36,601 bases of DNA from Bacillota bacterium (GTDB lineage: Bacteria > Bacillota > Clostridia > Eubacteriales > Eubacteriaceae): positions 1-36,601 of the forward strand of contig JAHIQT010000143.1 of NCBI GenBank assembly GCA_018903255.1. The letters run 5' to 3'. This document shows, one piece after another, positions 2,966-29,751 of this stretch (position 1 is the first letter of the stretch; each line of letters begins with the position of its first letter). Below the pieces are notes generated by a model that saw only the letters and a list, made by a program, of their open reading frames with translations, had not been told where the DNA came from and made no database searches. The position numbers and the translations under genes were made by a program.

Positions 2966-5900
2966 TTAGTTTGCAAAGATACTCATTGTTGGATCTGGTG
3001 TAACTACACCAGCTGTTTGAGCTGTTAATGTCACAATCGCACCAGCTACACTTACGTCATAGCCTGTAACAGTATCTGTTACTAACTGTGCTGAGATTTT
3101 AGCTGCAACTTGAGCTGCAGAATCTCCACTAGTTACAGCCACGATATGTGTTGTACCATTAACAATTACTGCGATGTTGCCAGTTGCACCAGCGGGAGTT
3201 GCTACAGTATAGTCAAGTTTTTCTTTAGTTGCTGGAATTAAATCCGCTCCACCAGTTAAATTAGCACCTGAAACTGTTATACCTGTACCTACTTCTGCAA
3301 GTGCAATACTGTCTCCAGCTGCACCTGCTGTAGCTGCAGTCACAGTAATTGTGCCAGCGTTGTTTGTTGCAGTTACACTTGCTAAACCATCAATCAGAGC
3401 TGTTAATTGAGCTGCTGTTGAATATTGACTTGCAGGTATAGTAACCGGTGATGCATATGAAAATGTAGTTGTGTCAACTGTCACTGTATCACTAGCAGCA
3501 GGAGTACCAAAAGTCACTGTACCTGTTGCAGCTACTGCAGGAACTACAGCAGCGCCCTGTGTTATTGAACTATTACCAGTAACACCAATAGCTGTTGAAC
3601 CTGGTACGGCTACAACAACACCTGTAGAAGCAATAACCGGTTTGATTGTATCGGTTGATGTATAATCTGTGATGTTAAATGTAATTGTACCTTTGTTTCC
3701 TGCTACTGTGGTGAATCCTGTAACTGGGTCAGTTGTGGTTGTTGTCCATGGTGATGTACCACTACCTTGAGTTAAAGTTTCAGTTAAAGTACCAAGAATT
3801 TTGTCAGTTCCGTCATTATATACACCGGTATTTGCGATTGAGTCGGCTTTATCCAAATAGATCTGACCAGCAGTGATACCAGTAGTCGCTGTCAGACAAA
3901 TACGTACACTGTAAACACTTGTAGGTGTTGTTGTTACGCCAGTTACAACTGGATCTCTACCAGTTGCTACGTCTGTTAAACCTAAAACAGTTGCATAATT
4001 AATCTTGCTGGCATTGGCAATTGTACCAGGTGCTAAGAAGCTAACAGAACTAATCTTAACTGTTCCTGTTAATACTGTAACACTTATGCTATCAACCACA
4101 TTTCCAAGAGGATCTTTTACTAATAATGCAGTTGTACCAGCTTTTAAGCCTGTAACTACAAAGCTGTCACCACTAGAGATTGTATATCCTGTTGCGTTTG
4201 CAGCCGCAGTTGCGATAGAAACAATCGTTTTATCACAAGTTACTGTATAGCCAGCTAAAGAAGGTGCAGTACCAATCTGTACACCAGCACTGTTGAAGTT
4301 ACCAACTTTGTAGGTGATTGCAGACTTGCTTGCTAATTCATTATCAATTGTATTGTTAGTAGGACCGCCTGTGACAACTAATTTTGTACTAGTTGGCATA
4401 TTATTGCTTGATGTAACGATTGTAGCTGATCCGATAACAGTATTATCGCTGTTTCTGAACACTACATTACCCGATTGTCCAGCAACTGCATTACTGCCTA
4501 ATGTTACAGTAATATCTACTAAACCTTTTTTACCATCGGCAGTATTTGGGGGTGTTCCTAAAGCTGTTGCAGGATTTAAAGTAATATCTTTAATGCTTCC
4601 TGGAGCAGCATAAGTTACGCCTGTTGCACCTACAAATGGATCGCCATATTGATCTTTAACCTGGACGGTCATTGTATTAGTAACAGTGTTACTAATGACT
4701 GCAGTGAATGTTGCTGCGCCATCTTTTAATGCTACAGTTGTAGCTTTACGAGCTGTACCAACAACAGTTAATGGAACTGTGTATGTAGCTTTTCCAGCTG
4801 TAATTGTCAGGTTTGCTGTTCCTAAGCCAGTAGCTGTAATAACACCTGTAGAGTTAACAGAAGCAACTGCGCTGTTATCAGAAGTTACAGTGTATCCAAC
4901 TTGGTTACTTAATTCAGCTGCTGCAGTACCATAGCCAACAACAACTTTAGTGATTTTAGCTGATTCGTTAACTACTAAAGATTTACTTGCATTGACAAAT
5001 GAATCTCCATTTACACCATTTGTTAAAGTATACGCTGTGATGTCAGAAACGTTGTTGTTTAAATTTCTAATCTTTAAGTTAGCTTTTGCAGAGGTTACAA
5101 CAGTTGCACCTTTTGCAATGGTTACTTGTACGGTATAATCTGCTTCAGTTGGTTGTACTACAGTAATTAAACCAGTTGATGCATTTAATAATGAGTTAAC
5201 TACCGCTCCATTGCTGTTCCATGTCACAAATGACACAGTGTAATTTTGCTCAGCCAGATAATCAGCTGTTGTAGAAACACCATTTACAAGTAAAGCAACC
5301 TTTTGATTTTCTAAGATTGTATCAAAAGTTTGATCTTGAATTACTACTGTTGTAGCTGCGATTGTATACTTAACAGTATATTCTTTAGTAGTTCCATCAA
5401 TAGTAGCGGTTACTTTTACATTTGTATCAGGTACTAAGTTAGTTCCTAATGTAAGAGTTGCGCTTGTTCCATCAGCGTTTGGTGTTACTGCTGTTACAGT
5501 GTTACCAGCAACAGTGAACATAGATGTAGCAAGTTTGCTAAGTTCTGTACCAGTTACAGTAAGAGTTTTCTGAGCTGTAGCTGTTACTGCTGAAATAACT
5601 GGAACAGTTACAAGATCTTCCTGAGCGTCAAGAATAATAGCAGTCGCTGCATCAACTTCAGACTGTACATTGTCTTCGGTCATTACATTGTCTTCTACTA
5701 CATCCTGGTATGTTGCCCAAGAAGCTTTGGTGTAGTTAGCTTCGGTTACAGCTGCTAAAGCTGCTTCGTAGTCTGACAGGTCTGGCGCGATTTTTTCGAT
5801 TTTAACTTCAAGCGCTTCTAATCGTAAACCAGAACCAGTTGTTCCTAATTGTAGGCCACTCTTAATCCAATCGGTATCGCCTTCATTTTGGATGTGTCCT

Positions 5901-6364
5901 TTATAGGTAACAGAGTAGTCGCCAGAAACGTTACCTTCGTCATCGACTAAGGAAATTTTAATGGCTTCGATTCTTAAGCCCTCAGCCTGAGTTCCGGCTA
6001 ATTTGCCATCTTCAACAGGAGCCATCCAGCCCTTGTTCTGAACATGTACTTCATATTTAATGTGAAGTCCTTCTGGTGCATCTGTTAATTTGATCCAGAA
6101 TGCTTCCAGTCTCAGGCCTTCACCTACGGTTCCTAATCGGTTAGGACCTTGAATCCAGGAACCATCCAGTGGAAAGTCACCTTTGTTTTCTACGTGACCA
6201 CGGTACTCAACGCCTACATCAGATGTTTCTGTTGCTTTGACGCCGGATAATCCTAAAAACGAATCCCAAGCCGATACTTTTTCATTGGCTGCGAATACGC
6301 TTGAGGAAAATACCATGGAAAGCATTAACAATGTTGTTAAAATGCTAACTGTAATCTTCTTCAT
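2966..6364 (-). CDS. Large secreted ChW-repeat / Ig-like surface protein, 1132 aa
   Basis: Residues 1-26 form a Sec signal peptide (MKKITVSILTTLLMLSMVF, cleavage likely after VFA). Three ChW (clostridial hydrophobic, W) repeats follow at about 52-93, 102-139 and 151-190, each with the pattern Y-x-G/V-H-V/I-x-N-x-G and ending G-L-R-L/I-E-A. Residues 195-255 look like a helical FIVAR-type spacer. The rest is Thr/Val/Ala-rich beta-structure with several Big_2-like Ig domains (ITATGLGTANLTITAGKATY near 510). No LPXTG, SLH or C-terminal membrane anchor is visible, so attachment is probably non-covalent. GGAGG is seven bases before the start. An abundant cell-surface or S-layer-like role is inferred from the composition and the isolated, well-terminated transcription unit. 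Confidence 0.85.
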   Translation of the reverse strand: MKKITVSILTTLLMLSMVFSSSVFAANEKVSAWDSFLGLSGVKATETSDVGVEYRGHVENKGDFPLDGSWIQGPNRLGTVGEGLRLEAFWIKLTDAPEGLHIKYEVHVQNKGWMAPVEDGKLAGTQAEGLRIEAIKISLVDDEGNVSGDYSVTYKGHIQNEGDTDWIKSGLQLGTTGSGLRLEALEVKIEKIAPDLSDYEAALAAVTEANYTKASWATYQDVVEDNVMTEDNVQSEVDAATAIILDAQEDLVTVPVISAVTATAQKTLTVTGTELSKLATSMFTVAGNTVTAVTPNADGTSATLTLGTNLVPDTNVKVTATIDGTTKEYTVKYTIAATTVVIQDQTFDTILENQKVALLVNGVSTTADYLAEQNYTVSFVTWNSNGAVVNSLLNASTGLITVVQPTEADYTVQVTIAKGATVVTSAKANLKIRNLNNNVSDITAYTLTNGVNGDSFVNASKSLVVNESAKITKVVVGYGTAAAELSNQVGYTVTSDNSAVASVNSTGVITATGLGTANLTITAGKATYTVPLTVVGTARKATTVALKDGAATFTAVISNTVTNTMTVQVKDQYGDPFVGATGVTYAAPGSIKDITLNPATALGTPPNTADGKKGLVDITVTLGSNAVAGQSGNVVFRNSDNTVIGSATIVTSSNNMPTSTKLVVTGGPTNNTIDNELASKSAITYKVGNFNSAGVQIGTAPSLAGYTVTCDKTIVSIATAAANATGYTISSGDSFVVTGLKAGTTALLVKDPLGNVVDSISVTVLTGTVKISSVSFLAPGTIANASKINYATVLGLTDVATGRDPVVTGVTTTPTSVYSVRICLTATTGITAGQIYLDKADSIANTGVYNDGTDKILGTLTETLTQGSGTSPWTTTTTDPVTGFTTVAGNKGTITFNITDYTSTDTIKPVIASTGVVVAVPGSTAIGVTGNSSITQGAAVVPAVAATGTVTFGTPAASDTVTVDTTTFSYASPVTIPASQYSTAAQLTALIDGLASVTATNNAGTITVTAATAGAAGDSIALAEVGTGITVSGANLTGGADLIPATKEKLDYTVATPAGATGNIAVIVNGTTHIVAVTSGDSAAQVAAKISAQLVTDTVTGYDVSVAGAIVTLTAQTAGVVTPDPTMSIFAN

Positions 6365-9315: not shown

Positions 9316-10371
9316 ATGGAGAAAAATTTAAGCTTCACCGTCGATGAACTCATTGATTTAAATGTCTTGCAACAGTTTCAGGATAGTTTTGCCAAGGCGC
9401 TGGGGATGGCCAGCGTTTCGGTCGACAATATTAAGGGTACCATTACTGAACCCAGTAATTTTACCGATTTTTGCATGAAATACACCCGCGGCTCGGCCGA
9501 GGGCAACAAGCGCTGTATTGCCTGTGATATTGATGGCGGAAAAAAATCCGGAAACACTGGTAAGCCGGCGGTTTATTCCTGCCATGCCGGACTGGTCGAT
9601 TTCGCTGCCCCGATTGTTGTCGATGGCCAGCAGATTGGCGCCATCCTCGGTGGTCAGGTACTCGATGCGCCCCCGGATGAGGATAAGTTTCGCCGCATCG
9701 CCCGGGAGATCGGGGTCGACGAAGAAGAATACATTGCGGCACTACGTAAGATAACGATTGTGCCGCGAGAAAAAATTAATGCGGCGGCCGATATGCTTTA
9801 CGTTTTTGCCAATTCGATTTCTAAAATGGGCCATCACAACCGCTTACTGGTTCATGAAACTGAAAAATTCCAAGATATTTCTGAGAATATGTTTGAAAAT
9901 ATCCGTTCGGTCACCGATGTCGTCAATAATTTCTCAGTGCAGATTGAGTCGCTGATTAAGGCCTCGGATGAGCTGCTGGAATCCTCGACCATTTCTAAGA
10001 ACAAGGTTAAGGAAACCGATTCGATTCTTAAGTTTATTCGCGATGTTGCCACCCAAACCAATCTATTGGGACTCAATGCAGCGATTGAAGCCACCCGCGC
10101 CGGTGAATTTGGCCGCGGTTTTAATGTTGTTGCCGATGAGGTCCGGAAACTGGCGGTAATGAGTGTCGATTCCGCTAAAAAAATTGAGAGTATCCTCGAC
10201 AGCATTGTTGTCAGTATGAACTCAGTCGAATCGCAGGCGGCTAAATCCTACAAGATCATTGGCGAGCATCAGGCGGCCATGGGCGAAATTAATGAAAAGC
10301 TCAGTTTGCTTAATGAGATATCCGATAAGCTCAAGGTTGAGATTAAGAATTTGCAGAATAGTTTGTATTAG
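9316..10371 (+). CDS. Soluble chemoreceptor-like protein with PocR domain, 351 aa
   Basis: The N-terminal 170 residues form a PocR-type ligand-binding domain ([15 protein letters not shown], Cys-bearing segment RCIACD, then [14 protein letters not shown]). The C-terminal half carries the methyl-accepting chemotaxis hairpin tip ([20 protein letters not shown], then [13 protein letters not shown]). No membrane helix and no HAMP domain are present, and the signalling coiled coil is short. It should be a cytoplasmic receptor that couples a small-molecule signal to CheA/CheW. PocR domains are known in regulators of diol and one-carbon metabolism in anaerobes, but the ligand here is unknown. AAGGAG is seven bases upstream of the ATG, and a strong terminator follows, so it is monocistronic. 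No che genes are nearby. Confidence 0.88.
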
Positions 10372-21092: not shown

Positions 21093-22844
21093 TTAAACCA
21101 GTTTTGGTTTTTGGCTGTAAGTTGTGTGTAATAAGTGATGTGATTTATGACCATTGGGTTCTCCCAAATATTCATCATAAATGCGGATAACTGCTGGACT
21201 TTGGTGTGATTTACGGTATTTTGTGATTTTTGCATCTGACACATAAAGCGCTTTGGCTCTTTCTGCGCGGATATCAATATCCATTTTGTCTTTTGCTGGC
21301 ACAATCGATTGGCCACCACCGTTAACACAGCCGCCTGGGCATCCCATTAATTCAATGAAATGGGTATCAGCTAATTCGCCAGCTTTTAATTGTTGCATAA
21401 CTTTTTCAATGTTGCTTCCGCCACTGGCAACGAGTAGTTTAACTGCCAGATCAGGGGTTACATCAACAGTTGCTGTTTTGATTCCTTGTACACCACGAAC
21501 CATTTCGTAGTCAATTGCCTGAATATCTTTTTTGTTTAAGATATCAGCCAGTGTTCTTACGGCTGCTTCCATTACACCGCCGGTAGCACCGAAAATAACG
21601 GCTGCTCCAGTGTATTCGCCATAATAATCGTCAAATTCTTCTTTTGGAAGTTGATCAAACATAATTCTGGCTTCTTTAATCATCCGTGCAAGTTCACGTG
21701 TTGTGATTGAAATATCGACATCAGGAATGCCATCGACTTTTAGTTCTTCTCGTTTAAGCTCGTATTTTTTTGCTGTACATGGCATAACTGAAACAACGAC
21801 CATGTCTTTCGGATCAATGCCGTTTGTTTCGGCATAATGGCTTTTTAGTAATGCACCGGTAATCTGTTGTGGTGATTTACAGGTTGACAAATGTGGTAAA
21901 AATTCTGGGTAGTTGGTTTCGATGTATGAAATCCAACCTGGTGAACAAGATGTGATCATTGGCAGAACACCGCCGTTGGTTACACGACCAAGAAGCTCTG
22001 TTCCTTCTTCCATAATGGTAACATCGGCACCGAAGCCAGTATCAAATACCTTATCAAATCCAAGTCGTCTCAGGGCTGCTGCCATTTGGTCGGTAACAGG
22101 CGTTCCCATTGGGTATCCGAATTCTTCACCAAGTGATGCTCGAACTGCAGGTGCTGTTTCTACGATAACGGTTTTTGTTGGATCTGCAATTGCATCCCAG
22201 ACTTCCTGAATGCTTGATTTTTCTTTTAATGCGCCAACCGGACAGTTTACGATACATTGTCCGCATCGGATACATCCGACATCTGCTAACGATCTTCCAA
22301 AGACAGGCTGAACCTGAGAGGTAAAGCCACGGCCAACACTGCCAAGAACAGCAACGTTTTGTACGTCTCCACAAACAGCAACACACCGTTTACAAAGAAT
22401 ACATTTGCTTTCATCTCTGACAATTGAGTCTGATTTATCATCAACCAGTGTACCTGACACTTCGCCTTCAAAAGGAACTTCAGAAACGCCTAAATCAGTA
22501 GCCAGGGTCTGCAGTTCACAGTTTTCGCTACGAATACAGGTGGTACATTCGCGATTATGGTTTGACAGAATCAGCTCAAGATTAACACGTCGTGCTTCTC
22601 TTACATTTGGGGTGTTTGTTAAGACCTCAATGCCATTAGCAACTGGGTAAACACAAGCTGCCTGCAGGGCTCTGGCACCGGCAATTTCAACTAAACACAT
22701 CCGACATGCACCAATTTCGTTAACATCTTTCAGGTAACAAAGGGTGGGGATGTCAATATTGCATTGTCGTGCAGCTTCTAAAATGGTTGTTCCTTCGGGA
22801 ACAGTCATTTCCTGTCCGTTTATTTTAAAAGTAACTTCTTTCAT
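21093..22844 (-). CDS. hydA: [FeFe] hydrogenase catalytic subunit of the electron-bifurcating complex
   Basis: 583 residues. An N-terminal [2Fe-2S] ferredoxin domain has Cys36, 47, 50 and 64; a His/Cys cluster follows (His96, Cys100, 103, 109), then two [4Fe-4S] sets (CILCKRCVAVC, CIRCGQCIVNC). H-cluster motifs are TSCSPGW (L1), MPCTAKKYE (L2) and ELMGCPGGCVNGGGQ (L3). Soluble cytoplasmic HydABCD oxidises H2 while reducing NAD+ and ferredoxin together, or runs in reverse. The start at 22844 is chosen because AGGAGG precedes it and it gives a normal ferredoxin N-terminus; the frame stays open another 61 codons into hydB but without family sequence. Last gene of the operon, 19 bp after hydB. 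Confidence 0.96.
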   Translation of the reverse strand: MKEVTFKINGQEMTVPEGTTILEAARQCNIDIPTLCYLKDVNEIGACRMCLVEIAGARALQAACVYPVANGIEVLTNTPNVREARRVNLELILSNHNRECTTCIRSENCELQTLATDLGVSEVPFEGEVSGTLVDDKSDSIVRDESKCILCKRCVAVCGDVQNVAVLGSVGRGFTSQVQPVFGRSLADVGCIRCGQCIVNCPVGALKEKSSIQEVWDAIADPTKTVIVETAPAVRASLGEEFGYPMGTPVTDQMAAALRRLGFDKVFDTGFGADVTIMEEGTELLGRVTNGGVLPMITSCSPGWISYIETNYPEFLPHLSTCKSPQQITGALLKSHYAETNGIDPKDMVVVSVMPCTAKKYELKREELKVDGIPDVDISITTRELARMIKEARIMFDQLPKEEFDDYYGEYTGAAVIFGATGGVMEAAVRTLADILNKKDIQAIDYEMVRGVQGIKTATVDVTPDLAVKLLVASGGSNIEKVMQQLKAGELADTHFIELMGCPGGCVNGGGQSIVPAKDKMDIDIRAERAKALYVSDAKITKYRKSHQSPAVIRIYDEYLGEPNGHKSHHLLHTTYSQKPKLV

Positions 22845-22863
22845 TATTCTGATAACCTCCTCA

Positions 22864-24663
22864 TCAAGCCTTGGAAATGGAGCCAAATGGACAGGCTTCA
22901 ATACAGGCATTACATTTAATACATTTTGCTGTATCAATGGTGTATGGTTTTTTCTTTTCGCCAGTGATCGCATCAGCTGGACATTTTTTAGCACAGATGC
23001 CACAACCCTTACAGGTTTCGGGATCAATGGTGAAGTCTAATAAATGTTTACATACGCCGGCTGGACATTTTTTATCATTAATATGTGCTTCATATTCATC
23101 TCTGAAATAGCGAATCGTTGAAAGAACAGGGTTAGGCGCGGTTTGTCCCAGTCCACAAAGGGCTGAAGCTTTAATGCCTACTGCTAATTCTTCTAATCGT
23201 TCGATATCGCCTTTAACGCCTTTTCCATCACAGATACGTTCTAGAATTTCTAACATTCTTTTGGTACCGATACGGCAAGGTGGGCATTTACCACAGGATT
23301 CGTCCTGAGTAAAGTCAAGGAAGAAACGGGCAACGTCAACCATACAGTTGTCTTCATCCATGACGATTAGTCCACCAGAACCCATCATTGAGCCGATGGC
23401 AATCAGGTTATCATAATCAATTGGTGTATCTAATAAAGAAGCAGGGATACATCCGCCTGAGGGTCCCCCGGTTTGAGCTGCTTTGAAAGCCTTACCGTTA
23501 GGAATACCACCACCGATATCATAGACGATTTCTCTCAGGGTTGTGCCCATTGGGATTTCAAGTAGACCGGTGTTATTGATTTTTCCGCCCAGTGCGAAGA
23601 CCTTTGTTCCTTTAGATTTTTCGGTACCTACTGACGCAAACCATTCTGCGCCTTTTAAGATAATGGCGGGAATATTTGCATAGGTTTCGACGTTATTTAA
23701 AACGGTTGGTTTTCCAAATAAACCTTTATTAGCTGGGAATGGCGGACGTGGACGCGGTTCACCACGTTTACCTTCGATCGAGTTCATTAGCGCGGTTTCT
23801 TCACCACATACGAATGCGCCGGCACCGAGACGAATTTCAAGGTCAAAGGCGAAATCGGTGTCGAAAATATTTTCGCCCAGTAAGCCATATTCTTTGGCTT
23901 GATCAATAGCGATTTGCAGACGGTTTACGGCAATTGGGTACTCAGCTCGAACATATACATAACCTTTAGCAGCGCCAACTGCAAAACCAGCAATCGCCAT
24001 CGCTTCGATTAAGGCATGGGGATCACCTTCAAGTACAGAACGATCCATGAATGCGCCAGGGTCACCTTCATCGGCGTTACAGGCGACGTATTTTACGCCA
24101 TCTTCTGATACGGCGTCATGGGCAAATTGCCATTTAAGGCCGGTAGGGAAGCCACCGCCCCCACGACCACGAAGACCAGAAGCTTTTACTTCATTGATAA
24201 CATCGATTGGGGTCATGGTTAGTAATACTTTTTCAAGTGCCATGTAACCATCAAATGCGATATATTCGTCAATGTTTTCAGGATCAATAACACCACAGTT
24301 TACCAGAGCAATCCGTTTTTGGGTTTTAAAGAAGCCTAAGTCATTAATTGACAGTGGGTGATGTCCATCCCCTTTTTCGGTGTAGATCAGGCGATCTAGT
24401 GGACGACCCTTTACCAGATGTTCTTCTACTAATTCGGTAATATCTGCTGCTTCAACCCGACTGTAGAATGTGCCTTCTGGGTAAACAATAACGACGGGTC
24501 CTAGTTCACATAAACCAAAACAACCGGTTGCTACAACTTCTACCTCATCAAGGATATCATGTTTTACTAATTCTTTTTTTAATTCCTTTACTAATGTCAT
24601 TGCACCAGAGGAACAACATCCTGTGCCACCACAAATCAGAATCTGCGAACGTTTATATGCCAT
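22864..24663 (-). CDS. hydB: NuoF-like flavoprotein subunit of the bifurcating hydrogenase
   Basis: 599 residues. The N-terminal thioredoxin-like [2Fe-2S] domain has CGGTGCCSSG and TGCFGLCELG. The NuoF core follows: GRGGGGFPTGLKW, NADEGDPGAFMDR, GAGAFVCGEETALMNSIEG (NADH and FMN sites), then ESCGKCPPCRIGTKR for a [4Fe-4S] cluster. The last 60 residues hold two [4Fe-4S] ferredoxin motifs (CKGCGICAKKCPADAI and CIKCNACIEACPFGSI). HydB carries the FMN at which electrons from H2 are split between, or merged from, NAD(H) and ferredoxin. It starts 19 bp after hydD. Confidence 0.96.
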   Translation of the reverse strand: MAYKRSQILICGGTGCCSSGAMTLVKELKKELVKHDILDEVEVVATGCFGLCELGPVVIVYPEGTFYSRVEAADITELVEEHLVKGRPLDRLIYTEKGDGHHPLSINDLGFFKTQKRIALVNCGVIDPENIDEYIAFDGYMALEKVLLTMTPIDVINEVKASGLRGRGGGGFPTGLKWQFAHDAVSEDGVKYVACNADEGDPGAFMDRSVLEGDPHALIEAMAIAGFAVGAAKGYVYVRAEYPIAVNRLQIAIDQAKEYGLLGENIFDTDFAFDLEIRLGAGAFVCGEETALMNSIEGKRGEPRPRPPFPANKGLFGKPTVLNNVETYANIPAIILKGAEWFASVGTEKSKGTKVFALGGKINNTGLLEIPMGTTLREIVYDIGGGIPNGKAFKAAQTGGPSGGCIPASLLDTPIDYDNLIAIGSMMGSGGLIVMDEDNCMVDVARFFLDFTQDESCGKCPPCRIGTKRMLEILERICDGKGVKGDIERLEELAVGIKASALCGLGQTAPNPVLSTIRYFRDEYEAHINDKKCPAGVCKHLLDFTIDPETCKGCGICAKKCPADAITGEKKKPYTIDTAKCIKCNACIEACPFGSISKA

Positions 24664-24682: not shown

Positions 24683-25081
24683 TTAACCCTTAACCGTTGG
24701 ATCGATGAGTTTACCATCAACCACAGTCATGGTATATTCATCTACAATTTTGCCTTGAGCCAAATGTTCAGCTACAACGCGGGCAACCTTTTCGGCATTC
24801 ATGTGCACATAGGTTACTTTATCATTGTTGCCATCATAAACTTCTACAATTGGTTCTAAGCGACATGATCCGATACATCCGGTTTGGGCAACAGTAACGT
24901 CAACCAAGTTCTTTGCTTCAACCTCTTCCATCAGTTTAACCATTACTGGTCGCGCGCCTGCAGCGATACCGCAGGTTGCCATTCCAACTACAACACGGTA
25001 GCCATCTTTGCCGTGTCGTAGGTTGATTTCGTTTAATTTCTTTTCACGAATCGCTTTTAGTTCTGCTAAGGACTTTGCCAT
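24683..25081 (-). CDS. hydD: Thioredoxin-like ferredoxin-type subunit HydD
   Basis: 132 residues from the ATG at 25081, with GGAGGAAGC just upstream; the start lies 16 bases inside the end of hydE. The fold resembles [2Fe-2S] thioredoxin-like ferredoxins: GMATCGIAAGARPVM, then TGCIGSCRLEPIVEV. Only three of the usual four cysteines are visible (one in ATCG, two in GCIGSC), so a canonical [2Fe-2S] cluster is doubtful. As I recall, HydD of Acetobacterium is part of the purified complex with no assigned function. Confidence 0.88.
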   Translation of the reverse strand: MAKSLAELKAIREKKLNEINLRHGKDGYRVVVGMATCGIAAGARPVMVKLMEEVEAKNLVDVTVAQTGCIGSCRLEPIVEVYDGNNDKVTYVHMNAEKVARVVAEHLAQGKIVDEYTMTVVDGKLIDPTVKG

Positions 25082-25638
25082 AATGCTTCCTCCATCATTT
25101 CTTGAATTTCTTTTAAACCCTCTGAAACGTATTCCCGGATCCAATTAAGAATGTCCGGTTCGTTTAACGATTCAACTTCCAGAGTCGCTTTAATTTCTTG
25201 TGTATTAAAAACAAATAGTTGATTGTTGTAGTCGTGTTCATAAATAAGATCCGCCGCTCCAAAAGACATGACCATCGTGAGAATTGTATCAGCCATATTC
25301 CCCAAGGGGACACGATCGATATGATCGCGCTTAAAGCTTGCAACCACCTTTGTGCCAACCCCTTGGGTTGAGCTTATCTCAAAGTATCCGCCGCATCCTT
25401 CAGCAGCTGCTTTGAACAAGGATAAACCCAGACCAACCTTACGGGTTGTTCGGGTTGTTACAAATGGATCTGTGATATTCTCAAGTCGATCGGCCGGTAT
25501 TCCGCAGCCATTATCCTTAATGATAATGGTGAGTTCATTGTTTGCCGTGGACTCGACAATAAACAGCTCAACAAGCTTTGCCTGAGCTCTGATGGAGTTT
25601 TGGGTGATATCCAAGATATGAAGGGACAACTCTTTCAT
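25066..25638 (-). CDS. hydE: GHKL-type ATP-binding protein HydE (hyd operon)
   Basis: 190 residues. The first 110 form a HATPase_c domain: N box SIRAQAKLVEL, G1 box DNGCGIP, then TTRTTRKVGLGLSLFKAAAE (G2 region) and GVGTKVVASF. No histidine phosphorylation domain or sensor domain is present, and the C-terminal 80 residues are of unknown type. It cannot be a complete histidine kinase. It sits between hydC and hydD and overlaps hydD, so it is made with the hydrogenase; the corresponding protein is, to my memory, not found in the purified A. woodii enzyme. A regulatory or assembly role is possible. The name hydE here is not the radical-SAM maturase HydE. Confidence 0.85.
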   Translation of the reverse strand: MKELSLHILDITQNSIRAQAKLVELFIVESTANNELTIIIKDNGCGIPADRLENITDPFVTTRTTRKVGLGLSLFKAAAEGCGGYFEISSTQGVGTKVVASFKRDHIDRVPLGNMADTILTMVMSFGAADLIYEHDYNNQLFVFNTQEIKATLEVESLNEPDILNWIREYVSEGLKEIQEMMEEALWQSP

Positions 25639-25647
25639 AATCGTTAA

Positions 25648-26118
25648 CTAGTATTTTTCTATGATACCTGCAATATCATCTAAAACTAAACGTCCGTAAA
25701 CATCTTCATTAACGGTTAAGACCGGTGCTAAACCACATGCTCCAATACATCGCGTTGCATCAACCGACCATTTGCCATCTTCAGTTGTATCGCCAACCTG
25801 GGTTCCCAGAATACTGTTAACTTTGTCAATAATTGGTTGTGCCCCTCGTACATAACAAGCGGTTCCTAAACAAATTCCAATTTTGAATTTCCCCTTTGGC
25901 GTCAGGTTAAATTGAGAATAAAATGTTGCCACACCGTAGACCTCAGTTAAGGGCATCCCTAACTCATCTGCAATGGTTCCCTGTAGTTCAAGTGGTAAAT
26001 AGCCGTATTTTTCCTGGGTTTCCTGCAGAATCTGCATTAAACAACCTGGTACTTCTCTGTGCTCGGCCACTATTGCCTTTACTACGTCCAAATTTTCAAC
26101 TGGTATTAATTCAGCCAA
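25648..26118 (-). CDS. hydC: NuoE-like [2Fe-2S] subunit of the bifurcating hydrogenase
   Basis: 156 residues. The N-terminal helical part contains PGCLMQILQETQEKYGYLPL and VYGVATFYSQF, typical of NuoE/HydC. The thioredoxin-like part has the four cluster ligands in CLGTACYVRGA and CIGACGLAPV. It passes electrons to or from HydB. The start codon is TTG at 26116-26118, with a strong AGGAGG eight bases upstream and no better alternative. It is the first gene of the hyd operon; hydE starts nine bases after its stop. Confidence 0.95.
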   Translation of the reverse strand: MAELIPVENLDVVKAIVAEHREVPGCLMQILQETQEKYGYLPLELQGTIADELGMPLTEVYGVATFYSQFNLTPKGKFKIGICLGTACYVRGAQPIIDKVNSILGTQVGDTTEDGKWSVDATRCIGACGLAPVLTVNEDVYGRLVLDDIAGIIEKY

Positions 26119-26185: not shown

Positions 26186-26224
26186 ATTATAACATATAAC
26201 CAAAATTTTCGTTATATTTATAAC
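26186..26224 (-). promoter_or_regulatory. Probable extended -10 promoter and palindrome upstream of hydC
   Basis: On the minus strand TGTTATAAT gives an extended -10 with a perfect TATAAT (plus-strand 26186-26191), about 68 bases before the TTG start. The expected -35 position reads TAACGA, a poor match. A perfect palindrome, GTTATATTTATAAC (26211-26224), overlaps that -35 position and could be an operator. It does not match the clostridial Rex consensus closely. Confidence 0.6.
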
Positions 26225-26343
26225 AGATAAATTTTTACTCATTTTAACCTAAATATTAATGAAAACCTTTAACACGAAGGGTTTTTGAAGTAAAATTTAT
26301 ACTCTTTTGTTTTTATTTTTGTAAAGGTGTAATAATTTTGCAC

Positions 26344-26380
26344 AAAAAAAAACGGGAATTTTTAAAATACCCGTTTTTTT
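26344..26380 (-). terminator. Rho-independent terminator after the PHP gene
   Basis: AAAACGGG and CCCGTTTT arms (26349-26356 and 26370-26377) with a 13-base AT-rich loop and a run of nine T on the minus strand. It separates the HydS-like module from the hyd operon promoter. Confidence 0.85.
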
Positions 26381-26386
26381 CATCAA

Positions 26387-27115
26387 CTAACCCAGATAGT
26401 CAATCAGGGTTTGCCGCCGCATATCCGGCAGTTCCAAAAAGTATTGCCGCTCAGCGATGTCTTCCAATTGATGGGCGTCGGAGCCATGGATAAACTGATA
26501 GTCCTTAAAGAAGCGAAAATTTGCAAGAACCTTCTCAAAGCTTTGATTCTTTGATACTTCACAGGTTTTGACGTCCAGTTCCAGCGGAATAAAGCCCAGC
26601 GAGGCAATAATACTATAAGACTTGCGGTCGATATGGGCCGGAACCAGAATCCCGCCCAGATCCGTGACGATTTGCCAAAGCTTTTCGACCCCAATGTCGG
26701 TGGCTGATATCAGTAGCTTGTCGATTTCACCGATGATCTGATCATGCTCGTCCATAATGATTTGCGGGCCAAATATTTCCTTTTGATTACTGACATCGGG
26801 GAGGTGTTGATAAATAATTTCATCGAGTGCCATCGCCGCTTCAAGGGTCGGCAGATAGGCCAGGATATGGGCCTCTTCTTTGGTCGTCACTTCGATTCCC
26901 GGGAGGATACAAAGCCCGATTTCGGTTTCTTTTGCCAATTCTTTTGCCACCGCCATGATTGCCGGTAAATTCTTTGCTGAATTATGATCGGTAACCGCAA
27001 TAAAATCCAGCTCTTTGATGAGTGCCATATTCACAATGTTATTGGGGGTCATCTCCGCTTGACCACAGGGGGATAAGAGCGAGTGAATGTGCAAATCTAT
27101 GGCTACCTTTTCCAT
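26387..27115 (-). CDS. PHP-domain metal-dependent phosphoesterase, 242 aa
   Basis: Metal-site motifs are DLHIHSLLSPCG at residues 7-18, VTDHNSAKN, PGIEVTTKEEAHIL, PAHIDRKSY and HGSDAHQLED near the C-terminus. It belongs to the PHP superfamily and is closest in style to small nucleotide or oligonucleotide phosphoesterases; the substrate is unknown. Its ATG directly follows the TAA of the DRTGG gene (TAAATG), so the two are cotranslated. It is the last gene of the HydS-like module. The middle region EIIYQHLPDVSNQKEIFGPQ carries no metal ligands. Confidence 0.88.
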   Translation of the reverse strand: MEKVAIDLHIHSLLSPCGQAEMTPNNIVNMALIKELDFIAVTDHNSAKNLPAIMAVAKELAKETEIGLCILPGIEVTTKEEAHILAYLPTLEAAMALDEIIYQHLPDVSNQKEIFGPQIIMDEHDQIIGEIDKLLISATDIGVEKLWQIVTDLGGILVPAHIDRKSYSIIASLGFIPLELDVKTCEVSKNQSFEKVLANFRFFKDYQFIHGSDAHQLEDIAERQYFLELPDMRRQTLIDYLG

Positions 27116-27448
27116 TTAAATGCCGGCGTTTCCTAAAATCTTACAGACTTCGTAGGCGTTCAGACCGGTAATGATAATCGGGATATCTTCGATAATGGCC
27201 CGTTCTAGCGTGCTTTCTTCGACTTCGGCACCTTCTGGAATAATCACACAGGTCATTTCCAGCAGGGTTGCCACCGCAATGATATTAACATGGGTCTGAA
27301 TCGTGACCCAGGCACATCCCTTGCCGGCATTGGCCATGACCCAGCTGAGTAAATCGCCGACATAACCACTGTCAATAACCCCTTCAATGCCCACCTGGGG
27401 ATTGAGACACTTGAATTCCTTGTTGTTTAATAAGTCACTTACCTTCAT
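27116..27448 (-). CDS. DRTGG-domain protein, 110 aa (HydS module, second copy)
   Basis: A single DRTGG-like domain: KVSDLLNNKEFKCLNPQ at the start, then GYVGDLLSWVMANAGKGCAW and a hydrophobic strand pattern ending ITGLNAYEVCKILG. DRTGG domains occur with CBS domains and in phosphotransacetylases and are thought to bind small ligands. AAAAGGAG precedes the ATG. It lies 116 bp after the HydS-like gene; the gap contains a perfect 16-bp palindrome. Confidence 0.82.
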   Translation of the reverse strand: MKVSDLLNNKEFKCLNPQVGIEGVIDSGYVGDLLSWVMANAGKGCAWVTIQTHVNIIAVATLLEMTCVIIPEGAEVEESTLERAIIEDIPIIITGLNAYEVCKILGNAGI

Positions 27449-27507
27449 TCGTTTTCTCCTTTTAATTTTATCTCATTAATCGTTTTTGTCACGTGATGGA
27501 GGCGACT

Positions 27508-27523
27508 ATCGCTGAGCAGCGAT
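27508..27523. other. 16-bp palindrome between the HydS-like gene and the DRTGG gene
   Basis: ATCGCTGAGCAGCGAT, with a 7-bp arm on each side of a two-base centre. No T tract follows. It could be an operator, a processing site or a weak attenuator within the operon. Confidence 0.45.
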
Positions 27524-27564
27524 CAAGCCCTCGTCCGAAAAAGCGTTAAGTTGTTTTTTAGTCT

Positions 27565-28908
27565 TTATTCTTTCTTGATCAGCGGTTTTTCAGTCGGGTG
27601 TTCCACCTGCAGTAATTCATTCGTCAAAACAGAGAGATCCCGGACCCGGTCTTTTAAGACAAAGACACAGTCAATTTCTTTGGCTTTTCCAGCCACGATA
27701 TCTTCGGCCAGCGCCCGGCAACCGGGCGAACCACAGGATCCGCAATCCAGACCGGGTAGTTTGGTTTCGAGGATTTCGATCTGCTTCATTTTTTCGATCG
27801 CCTTATTGAGATCCTGATCGAGCGGTTCTGGACTACGGGGATTAATCCGCTCTTTAATGTGCATCATTCCAGAATTATAAATGCTTTTGACGTAGTCATC
27901 GGACATGTGCACAATCGAGGTCTGTCTCATTTTTTTGGCACGATCCTGGATGTACATTTTGGCGACATAATTATTCTCAACCGTCAGGCAACCACCAACA
28001 CAGCCGCCGATACAGGCCAGGCCTTCAAAAAATTCGATCGTATCGAGTTTACCACATTCAATTTCTTCTAAGACATTAATCACGTTTTGAATACCATCGA
28101 CATGGAGGACGTTTTTATTTTTCAAGTAGTCGCTTTCGCCACCGGTCAAAGCCCAGGTGCAGGATTCGGGGGTGGTATTGTGAATCCCTTCCTGGAGCGG
28201 ACAAGAGCCGATCTGGCTGGCCAGGTCGCTGTAGATATCTTTGATCGCGATGGCACCATCGATCTGATCGTACTTGTCATATTCGCTGGCGGCCGGATTA
28301 TTGATCATCGTCGCCTTGGCGGCGCAGGGCGTAATAAAAAACATGCCAACATCACTGTTTTTGTATACCCCTTCTTCTCTGATCCGCTTTCTGATCAGTC
28401 GGGCGGTCATCGCCATCGGCGATTTGAGCCGGCAGATATTGTCGGTAAGCTCCGGAAAGCGCACCTGAATCAGCTTGACAACGGCCGGACAGGCTGACGA
28501 AATCAGTGGTTTGGGATAGCGTTTGGCATGGTACTCATACTTTAGCGCCTGACCAACGATCTCGGCGCCATAGGCCACCTCGACGACCTCATCAAAGCCC
28601 AGCGCCTTAACCGCTGAGAGAATTTGATCGATCGAATACTTGGGTTTAAACTGGCCAATGATGGCTGGTGCCACCAGGGCGACCCGATATTTAAAACTAT
28701 CTTTTTTTGAAAGCGGATCGGTTTTTGCCAGTTTGGCATGATGGGGACAGATTCGGATACACTCACCGCAATCAATGCATTTAGACTCATTGATAATCGC
28801 CTTGCCACCGCGCACCCGGATCGCCCCGGTCGGACAGCTTCTCAGACAGGTGGTGCAGCCGAGACATTTTTCCTCATCAAGGTATACAGAATGAAGTAAT
28901 TTTTCCAT
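27565..28908 (-). CDS. HydS-like putative sensory [FeFe] hydrogenase, 447 aa
   Basis: Two N-terminal [4Fe-4S] motifs ([11 protein letters not shown] at 15-25, [11 protein letters not shown] at 44-54) precede a short H-cluster domain: L1 SSACPAVV with Cys140, L2 TPCAAKA with Cys195, L3 [12 protein letters not shown] with Cys299 and Cys303. The C-terminal part has a further Fe-S domain (CGSCGSPGC, 389-397, and a later Cys). There is no [2Fe-2S] domain and no PAS domain. Ala stands at the first Cys position of the classical TSCCP loop. As I recall, the sensory HydS of Thermotoga maritima, encoded near its bifurcating hydrogenase, lacks the proton-relay Cys in the same way. The setting among ATPase and DRTGG genes also favours sensing over bulk H2 turnover. 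Confidence 0.85.
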
Positions 28909-28926
28909 ATCTGACCTTCTTCCTGT

Positions 28927-29343
28927 TTATACTAAAAATTTCATGATAATTTTTGTACCCTCACCAATTTTTGATGAGATCGCAAAATTATCGGCGTTGT
29001 TTTTCATATTGGGCAGACCCATTCCCGCACCAAAGCCCATTTGCCGGACTTCATCACCGGCGGTTGACCAGCCTGCTGTCATCGCCAGATCAATATTGGC
29101 AATACCCGGTCCAATATCTTCAATCGTTAACATCAATTCTTCCTCACCTACCTCCAGGGTTATTTTTCCGCCATCGGAATGGATCGCTAAATTCATTTCA
29201 CTTTCGTAACCGGCAATCGAAACCTTCCTGATCACCTTATTGGAAACCCCCAATTGCTGCAACGTCCGTTTAATCTTTCTTGATGCTTCGCCGGCAGTAT
29301 CAAAATCGCCCCGGGCTACTTCAAAGACGAGTTCATAACTCAT
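28927..29343 (-). CDS. GHKL ATPase, SpoIIAB/RsbW-like, 138 aa
   Basis: A single HATPase_c domain: N box SIAGYESEMNLAIHSDGG, G1 box IEDIGPGIANID, then GFGAGMGLPNMKNNAD (G2 region) and GEGTKIIMKF. The size and lack of other domains resemble anti-sigma kinases such as SpoIIAB and RsbW. Its ATG overlaps the stop of the DRTGG gene upstream (ATGA), and the HydS-like gene starts 18 bp downstream, so the three products are made together. No anti-anti-sigma (STAS) partner or matching sigma factor is encoded in the unit. It could phosphorylate a distant target or act as an ATP-dependent adaptor. Confidence 0.88.
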   Translation of the reverse strand: MSYELVFEVARGDFDTAGEASRKIKRTLQQLGVSNKVIRKVSIAGYESEMNLAIHSDGGKITLEVGEEELMLTIEDIGPGIANIDLAMTAGWSTAGDEVRQMGFGAGMGLPNMKNNADNFAISSKIGEGTKIIMKFLV

Positions 29344-29690
29344 CTGAGATGAGCTCCTTTAAGACCATTTTTATAAAGAATGCCGCAACATTCAAAAAGA
29401 ATATACTTGGTCGACATAACCAGAAGATTTCGTTCTTTTGCCATTTCGATCATTTCCTGGCTGGGCATTTTATCCCGGACAAAGATAATGCTGTTCATAT
29501 TGGCCATGTCGGCGGTGTTGAGTACCTGTTTGTTGACCAGGCCGGTGAGCAGAATGGCATCTTCTTTAGCAAAGCACAGCACATCACTCATCAGATCACA
29601 GCCAAATCCGGAATGGACTTCTTCTTCCAGATGGCTCTCGCCGGATAAAACAACCGCATCGAGCAGGTCTCTTACTAGACTTAATTTCAT
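29340..29690 (-). CDS. DRTGG-domain protein, 116 aa (HydS module, first copy)
   Basis: Start at 29690, with AAAGGAGAACC upstream; a longer frame runs another 18 codons but lacks a ribosome site. The sequence LSLVRDLLDAVVLSGESHLE, GFGCDLMSDVLCFAKED and LLTGLVNKQVLNTADMANMN fits the DRTGG fold, with three cysteines including a CC pair near the end (FECCGIL). It differs clearly from the second DRTGG protein of the unit. It is the first gene of the HydS-like operon and is coupled to the GHKL ATPase. Confidence 0.82.
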   Translation of the reverse strand: MKLSLVRDLLDAVVLSGESHLEEEVHSGFGCDLMSDVLCFAKEDAILLTGLVNKQVLNTADMANMNSIIFVRDKMPSQEMIEMAKERNLLVMSTKYILFECCGILYKNGLKGAHLR

Positions 29691-29721: not shown

Positions 29722-29751
29722 ATTGTAAAGGATTTCTTGTGCATTTAGCAA
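29722..29751 (-). promoter_or_regulatory. Probable promoter of the HydS-like operon
   Basis: On the minus strand TTGCTA (29746-29751), an 18-base spacer and TACAAT (29722-29727), about 32 bases before the start codon at 29690. Both boxes are fair matches to the sigma-A consensus. Confidence 0.6.

Follow-up and report, generated by a model that had tools for sequence, protein, structure and literature searches.

Putative sensory [FeFe] hydrogenases (HydS) are known from several bacteria, and how their signal is handed on is an open question in print. Members of one group, group D (M2e), have been reported upstream of bifurcating hydrogenases and near kinases (PMC3561251), with the same placement in Thermoanaerobacter (PMC3608648); for one of them, TamHydS of Thermoanaerobacter mathranii, sensing has been proposed and a GHKL neighbour named (PMC8163306), and a 2026 paper states that little is known of the complex or the partners of TamHydS in its native host (PMC13104023). 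Here and below, statements from the literature are drawn from excerpts of the papers cited. In this study we describe a five-gene unit around a group D HydS on a stretch of 36,601 nucleotides (nt; the window, contig JAHIQT010000143.1) that is part of a Bacillota assembly of 2.92 Mb in 216 contigs (GCA_018903255.1, 83% complete) and whose HydS finds its highest-identity matches in Acetobacterium. The unit, which reads DRTGG1 - GHKL ATPase - HydS - DRTGG2 - PHP with all genes on the minus strand, appears from sequence comparison to be real and tightly co-inherited, and it provides a known putative sensor with new candidate partners and a concrete hypothesis for the wiring of its output.

The unit shares with TamHydS the domain layout of the hydrogenase-like protein, the loss of the proton-transfer cysteine and a location next to a GHKL gene with a bifurcating hydrogenase downstream (PMC8163306), whereas its DRTGG pair, PHP gene, gene fusions and Rnf and rex contexts were not found in the excerpts of the published TamHydS accounts. 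The PAS-bearing HydS proteins of group C (M2f; T. maritima HydS, R. albus HydS and HfsB-HfsC of Thermoanaerobacterium) are likewise described as hydrogenase-derived putative sensors near hydrogenase genes, but the group C-like proteins inspected here come with a SpoIIE-type phosphatase or are fused to a sigma-54 activator, in place of DRTGG proteins and a SpoIIAB-like ATPase. The ATPase of the unit has the fold and the N-box Glu and Asn of the partner-switching kinases SpoIIAB and RsbW; unlike these, it has no recognised STAS partner or sigma factor in its unit, and canonical SpoIIAB proteins score far lower with the hidden Markov model (HMM) of its family. DRTGG1 has the fold of described DRTGG domains (AF1212, 2ioj; the CBS-DRTGG pyrophosphatase, 3l2b; the N-terminus of HPr kinase, 1ko7), whereas the unit contains two stand-alone paralogues that are kept as a pair and fused to different partners. 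That group D proteins are proposed sensors near a kinase-like gene and a bifurcating hydrogenase was already known; new are the recurring gene order, the co-occurrence, the fusions, the Rnf and rex contexts and a SpoIIAB-fold ATPase with no STAS protein or sigma factor in sight. In the literature searched, no description of the DRTGG pair, the PHP gene, the fusions or the co-inheritance was found, the one paper there with both DRTGG and hydrogenase being about lactate use; priority for the gene order is not certain, as Calusinska and co-workers (2010) may show gene maps. The named hosts of the unit include acetogens and gut and rumen assemblies, the H2 balance of which matters for biogas, biofuels and the gut.

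With HydS as bait, 314 pattern-matched stretches were obtained from GTDB genomes; a relative is encoded in 223 of them and the best 80 were kept (loci with L numbers). The five genes stand in order within 6 kb in 66 of the 80 loci, and the order is also kept in L012, L019, L020 and L065, which a position filter had dropped where DRTGG2 overlaps HydS, giving a total of 70. Of the other ten, three are cut at contig ends (L057, L064, L067), L022 lacks a DRTGG1 ahead of its ATPase, L048 holds a lone HydS, and in L051 and L031 the PHP gene lies behind hydA. No PHP gene was seen in the last three: in L033 the contig ends inside hydA, and in L059 and L068 none is present up to the contig end about 2.1 kb away. 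Because the order recurs in other genomes, a chance arrangement is untenable. A lack of conserved clustering, named by the sequence-only reading of the window as a first refutation, is clearly not what these genomes show.

A second survey, independent of the HydS bait, searched 291 evenly drawn Clostridia genomes (G numbers) with each profile. An ATPase of this type occurs in 144 genomes, the other three of the 147 listed having weak matches near 1e-16. The count is 143 for group D HydS (three of the 146 listed are weak, 1e-62 to 1e-65), 141 for PHP and, for the HydE-type GHKL protein of the hydrogenase operon (not the maturase HydE), 152, with three weak (1e-31 to 1e-38). Both ATPase and HydS are found in 141 genomes, the ATPase alone in 3, HydS alone in 2 and neither in 145 (phi 0.966); the corresponding phi values are 0.973 for HydS and PHP, 0.952 for ATPase and PHP and 0.884 for ATPase and HydE-type GHKL protein. 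The genes for ATPase and HydS are at most 1 kb apart in 136 of the 141 genomes, and of the remaining five, three are split at contig ends (G010, G119, G254) and two have them truly apart (G197, G250). Of the five genomes with only one of the two genes, G123, G053 and G045 have it at a contig end, and G210 lacks group D HydS. In G184 a reduced copy, consisting of DRTGG1 and a diverged ATPase only, stands behind the ValRS gene (L087 7457-8235), at the same place where its genus mate G119 has all five genes, split over two contig ends (L088/L089). Within the phylum the ATPase was found in 60 of 149 genomes. In many anaerobic bacteria the five genes thus appear to have been passed on mostly together.

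Gene fusions provide a clue as to which products belong together. DRTGG1 and the ATPase form a single protein in nine loci of related families (L024, L029, L030, L032, L035, L036, L039, L053, L054), and HydS and DRTGG2 do so in two (L031 and L033), which are 83% identical. A tree of 152 DRTGG sequences separates DRTGG1 (78) from DRTGG2 (74) with none misplaced (support 0.999), and each fusion falls in the clade expected for its partner. The fusions suggest two fixed pairs, DRTGG1-ATPase and DRTGG2-HydS; DRTGG1 and DRTGG2 may then also pair with each other. Further fusions may be present among the 61 ATPase matches of the phylum sample, 11 of which lie in open frames of at least 250 amino acids (aa). 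Both DRTGG proteins score below the Pfam cut-off for PF07085 (24.1 bits for DRTGG1 and 19.3 bits for DRTGG2 vs 25.2). The identity of DRTGG1 is supported by the predicted fold of a fused orthologue, of which the DRTGG1 half matches 2ioj (TM 0.78 by target) and 3l2b, and that of DRTGG2 only by its sequence kinship to DRTGG1. In the fusion model (pLDDT 90.4) the linker at 117-130 is disordered and the pTM is 0.74, so that nothing sure can be read from it on the DRTGG1-ATPase interface.

The HydS of the window matches Fe_hyd_lg_C (PF02906, 2e-38), FeS (PF04060, 5.4e-13) and Fer4 in Pfam, laid out as two N-terminal [4Fe-4S] motifs, the H-domain and a C-terminal FeS motif (PF04060); the same search gave no match to PAS up to E 0.1. 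At the positions of C299, M353 and M497 of CpI it has A139, T193 and L297 (CpI numbering and the group D/M2e features of TamHydS after PMC8163306). Position 139, the site of the proton-transfer cysteine of group A, holds Ala in 52 of 78 rows of the alignment, Ser in 21, Thr in 3, Asn and Asp in one each and Cys in none, which is a sensor-like feature. Of the two methionine sites near the diiron site, position 193 has Ser or Thr in all 78 rows, and position 297 has Leu in 33, Gln in 14, Asn in 10, still Met in 6 and other residues in the rest. The proton residues of TamHydS, E252 and E289 (PMC10407848), are kept as E258 and E295. Over the 291 genomes, group D proteins score at least 439 bits against at most 221 bits for other matches. 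Judged by layout, residues and this score gap, the window protein is of group D (M2e, TamHydS-type). The sequence-only reading, which had proposed a HydS-like sensor, is borne out in that a conserved, signalling-like unit surrounds a HydS-type protein next to the bifurcating hydrogenase, and is refined to group D as opposed to the PAS-bearing group C. The 16 cluster-type cysteines are intact in 137 of 143 HydS rows; two rows have one Cys replaced by Ser, three are cut and one is in the wrong frame (G141, the real HydS of which is in L236). In the structure comparison of the HydS-DRTGG2 model, HydS matches solved [FeFe] hydrogenases. Near the two-iron (2Fe) site, the pair K198/E258 is Lys/Glu in 118 of the 143 rows, Arg/Gln in 19 and Trp/Ala in one (G089), K198 being what we take to be K358 of CpI.

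The ATPase matches HATPase_c (2.8e-8, Pfam), and SpoIIAB is the best solved match (E 2e-9) of the ATPase half in the DRTGG1-ATPase fusion model. Its residues E47 and N51 do not vary over 69 rows and fall on the N-box Glu and Asn (E46 and N50 in SpoIIAB numbering) when aligned with canonical SpoIIAB-type proteins. Three of the latter, found in other genomes, were used, and behind each lies an open reading frame (ORF) that resembles a sigma factor by eye. With the family HMM these three score 57-59 bits and the ATPases of the unit 118 bits or more. The PHP protein (Pfam match 1.8e-6) has endonuclease Q (5zb8) and a 5'-3' exoribonuclease (7ug9) as distant relatives, and its H9, H11, H44, E75, H83, H161, D213 and H215, which we take to be the metal ligands known from the family, are invariant in 73 rows. 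Two ideas of the sequence-only reading, a nucleotide-type ligand for the DRTGG proteins and a PHP enzyme that makes or removes a signal molecule, found no support in these data; what the fusions suggest is that the DRTGG proteins serve as adaptors.

As the sequence-only reading had stated, the five ORFs are all present in the given order at 26387-29690, two of their four junctions overlap or abut (DRTGG1 and ATPase by 4 nt, DRTGG2 and PHP end to end; ATPase and HydS are 18 nt apart) and the unit lies directly upstream of a bifurcating hydrogenase operon, consisting of hydC, a GHKL gene, hydD, hydB and hydA. Of the promoter and terminator that it had assigned to the unit, the terminator is seen as a hairpin behind PHP (z -3.4). 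The promoter is not shown: its best candidate, TTGCTA-18-TACAAT, is one of 14 consensus matches where 8.1 +/- 3.1 are expected. Many loci continue with the same hydrogenase genes. The second GHKL protein is the closest companion of the unit and occurs even where its gene is not linked to it: it is strong in 138 of the 144 ATPase genomes and weak in two of the other six (G022, G075), and of the 11 genomes that have it without a detected ATPase, two (G045, G053) hold the unit with the ATPase cut off. Its gene directly follows PHP, with no hydC between, in L041, L049, L050, L071, L073, L079 and L081 and in G059, G250 and G197. The counterpart in A. woodii is annotated as sensory transduction histidine kinase HydE (Awo_c27000; PMC10472528).

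The genomic context of the unit extends beyond hydrogenase. Rnf genes follow it in G059, G210 and G250 (rnfC family-tested) and, as the matching layout indicates, in G131 and G197; hyd genes do not adjoin the unit in G059, G250 and G197. A downstream ORF that looks RnfD-like by eye is shared by 14 loci. HydS stands beside an Nqr-like BCDEF set in G250 (L084 7409-13600) and beside the same layout in G197 (L086 3559-9230). The rex gene overlaps the fused DRTGG1-ATPase gene by 4 nt in nine loci (family tested for L053) and lies 49 nt upstream of the unit in L023. ORF clusters that recur near the unit in at least four distant loci were identified by eye as rex, Rnf, ValRS, SLT-type and single-lineage genes. 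In the one-contig genome G024, neither a hyd gene (by profile) nor a recognisable Rnf gene adjoins the unit. A MoaC-family ORF was seen between hydB and the rnfC-like gene of G131 (L096 6911-7393). Since the unit also stands beside Rnf genes and rex, and HydS in two genomes beside Nqr-like genes, the common thread is the ferredoxin/NADH node and not hydrogenase alone; the tie to hydrogenase drawn in the sequence-only reading holds in many loci and is too narrow as a general description.

We consider that there is close to an even chance that the products of the five genes form a complex which signals the state of the H2/ferredoxin/NADH node. The gene set, its order and co-inheritance, the fusions, the conserved catalytic residues and the neighbourhoods are what the sequences provide; complex formation, an electron signal, kinase activity, a target and a role for PHP are what we infer from them. 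HydS would receive electrons either from H2 at an H-cluster or via its [4Fe-4S] chain from reduced ferredoxin, and its C-terminal [4Fe-4S] domain, which is next to the fusion junction with DRTGG2 in some species, would pass its state to DRTGG2. DRTGG2 would pair with DRTGG1, and DRTGG1, holding the SpoIIAB-fold ATPase, would let the latter be switched between states. The ATPase may then phosphorylate or bind a target, for which the nearest candidates are the second GHKL protein (the A. woodii HydE) and the enzymes of the Hyd/Rnf node, and the PHP enzyme would probably reset the system. The full specification, in which a HydS sensor is wired via a DRTGG1-DRTGG2 adaptor pair to a SpoIIAB-type kinase, in a manner like partner switching without STAS protein or sigma factor, controls Hyd and Rnf by protein phosphorylation and reads, in part of its range, the ferredoxin potential and not H2, is doubtful when taken as a whole.

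Several observations weigh against such a complex. STAS proteins are the usual substrates of SpoIIAB-like kinases, and neither a STAS protein nor a sigma factor was found in the unit of the window (Pfam) or recognised by eye among the recurring ORF clusters mentioned above. The eleven fusion loci represent about two independent events, and in the HydS-DRTGG2 fusion model HydS is good and DRTGG2 is of low confidence, so that the model lends no structural support to their junction; in the window the two genes are 116 nt apart. No DRTGG1 precedes the ATPase in G131 (L022/L096, 573 nt searched) or in G210 (L082), where only one DRTGG protein is present, from which it follows that DRTGG1 is not always needed or is encoded elsewhere, and another coupling would be required in these genomes. 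HydS itself is away from the other four genes in G250 and G197 and G210 has no HydS of group D; a second, group D-like HydS of Tepidanaerobacter sp. GT38 stands without the other four genes (L048 9983-11305). Finally, the support consists of sequence inference throughout.

Alternatively, the unit could sense H2 and switch transcription of the hyd operon, a role that is commonly proposed for HydS proteins and has been put forward for group D (PMC8163306, PMC3561251). Its location in many loci, ahead of hydC and the genes that come after it, agrees with this, and so does the equipment of the group C relatives. Twelve stretches with group C-like proteins were fetched and ten inspected. In eight of these ten (L241, L242, L243, L244, L246, L247, L248, L252) the gene after HydS encodes a SpoIIE-type phosphatase. 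The family tests for PAS and SpoIIE were made on L242; the phosphatases can be aligned to one another, that of L247 at only 24%. In L245 (6405-9041; G032) HydS-PAS is fused to a sigma-54 activator with HTH and adjoins hydC-D-B-A-like genes, which by architecture would make it a one-protein hydrogenase-derived transcription factor. L250 encodes a HydS-like protein of 748 aa. With a phosphatase or sigma-54 activator in group C and a SpoIIAB-like ATPase in group D, hydrogenase-derived sensors attach to several outputs. Against transcriptional switching by the unit, no DNA-binding protein was seen among its five genes, a terminator separates it from the hyd operon in the window, the unit of G024 has neither hyd genes (by profile) nor recognisable Rnf genes next to it, and those of G059, G250 and G197 have Rnf but no hyd genes. 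The leader of hyd is, moreover, enriched in Rex-like sites: 26 of 54 loci have a site with at least 11 of 14 matches in the gap between PHP and HydC (4.5 expected), compared with 15 of 78 upstream of the unit (4.3 expected), the expectations coming from mononucleotide shuffles only and the loci being related. A Rex site upstream of the hyd operon has been described in C. thermocellum (PMC8457756). Altogether, we hold it to be unlikely that the unit acts on hyd transcription in this way.

The Rex pattern matches 46 places in the 36.6 kb of the window itself where 22 are expected, 17 of them inside the repetitive surface-protein gene at 2966-6364, so that the single site at 26209 means little and was rejected as a Rex box. 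A second idea that was dropped is that the systems of groups C and D make up the two halves of a single kinase-phosphatase switch. Of the 291 genomes, 91 have the group C type phosphatase and 54 have it together with group D HydS, a weak link (phi 0.138), and among the ORF sets screened this phosphatase is found beside the unit only in L235 (G089, the genome with W198/A258), just upstream. The genome of the window also carries a SpoIIE-like phosphatase of the group C type (G000:C41:11346-12506).

A different question is whether H2 is the signal, since HydS could be a sensor of ferredoxin or redox potential that has no need of the 2Fe part of the H-cluster. The maturase HydF, sought in all 291 genomes with six candidates scored per genome, is above the cut-off in 199, and 31 HydS genomes lack a strong match. 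HydG, sought in those 31, in G184 and in 13 other genomes, is over the cut-off in all 13 of the latter and in 4 of the 31 (G156, G166, G269, G272), leaving 27 of 143 HydS genomes in which neither maturase was recognised by these searches (e.g. G059, in one contig, G014 and G234). The cleanest case is G131 (97% complete), where neither HydF nor HydG was found and HydS is the only PF02906 protein, yet ATPase, HydS, DRTGG2 and PHP are kept together with HydC, the GHKL gene, HydD, HydB and Rnf-type genes; G077 and G223 look like it but are 93% and 82% complete. The contrast between the nearly invariant cluster cysteines and the exchanges at K198/E258 points the same way. However, a PF02906 protein other than HydS is still present in 24 of the 27 genomes, which means that the maturase gap is not special to HydS and may reflect assembly gaps or another maturation route, and maturase loss was therefore rejected as proof that HydS does without a 2Fe site; the limit of six HydF candidates per genome adds to this. 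The excess of Gln at position 258 in maturase-negative genomes (9 of 27 vs 12 of 112 others) is concentrated in two families, and the others are mostly defined by HydF alone. At E295, the equivalent of E289 in TamHydS, neither set departs from Glu (27 of 27 and 112 of 112, one wrong-frame row included in the latter). In the laboratory TamHydS takes up a synthetic 2Fe site (PMC8163306). The genome of the window has both HydF and HydG, so that an H-cluster is possible there. We regard a HydS that dispenses with the 2Fe site as very doubtful. Most improbable is that the unit is an assembly or repair set for the FeS or H-cluster proteins of Hyd and Rnf, in which the GHKL ATPases would act as chaperone-like motors and HydS would be a carrier: the co-inheritance with the HydE-type GHKL protein and the proximity of FeS-rich Hyd, Rnf and Nqr-like operons would fit, but with HydF in 199 genomes and group D HydS in 143 at least 56 maturase genomes do without HydS, and a regulatory role better suits the SpoIIAB fold and the coupling to rex.

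Features of the five-gene unit and the adjoining hydrogenase operon in the window
Feature	Positions	Strand	Remarks
DRTGG1	29340-29690	-	116 aa; first gene of the unit
GHKL ATPase	28927-29343	-	138 aa; SpoIIAB fold (predicted)
HydS-like [FeFe]-hydrogenase-like protein	27565-28908	-	447 aa; group D (M2e)
DRTGG2	27116-27448	-	110 aa; paralogue of DRTGG1
PHP-family phosphoesterase	26387-27115	-	242 aa
Intrinsic terminator 3' of PHP	26345-26381	-	hairpin -13.7 kcal/mol, z -3.4
Candidate promoter TTGCTA-18-TACAAT	29722-29751	-	not above chance
Rex-box-like palindrome upstream of hydC	26209-26226	not assigned	weak, 2 mismatches
hydC	25648-26118	-	first gene of the bifurcating hydrogenase operon
Second GHKL ATPase, HydE-type	25066-25638	-	not maturase HydE; companion of the unit
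hydD-like [2Fe-2S] thioredoxin-like protein	24683-25144	-	ORF from TTG; true start probably later
hydB	22864-24663	-	
hydA	21093-23027	-	ORF from TTG; true start probably later

Three further regions of the window were noted. At its start lies an ISL3-type transposase gene, of which 984-1847 matches only positions 1-100 of the 240 of the DDE domain; the ORF at 179-796 may be the rest of it. The surface-protein gene at 2966-6364 encodes 1132 aa with ChW repeats, and the protein encoded at 9316-10371 combines a PocR sensory domain with a chemotaxis signalling domain.

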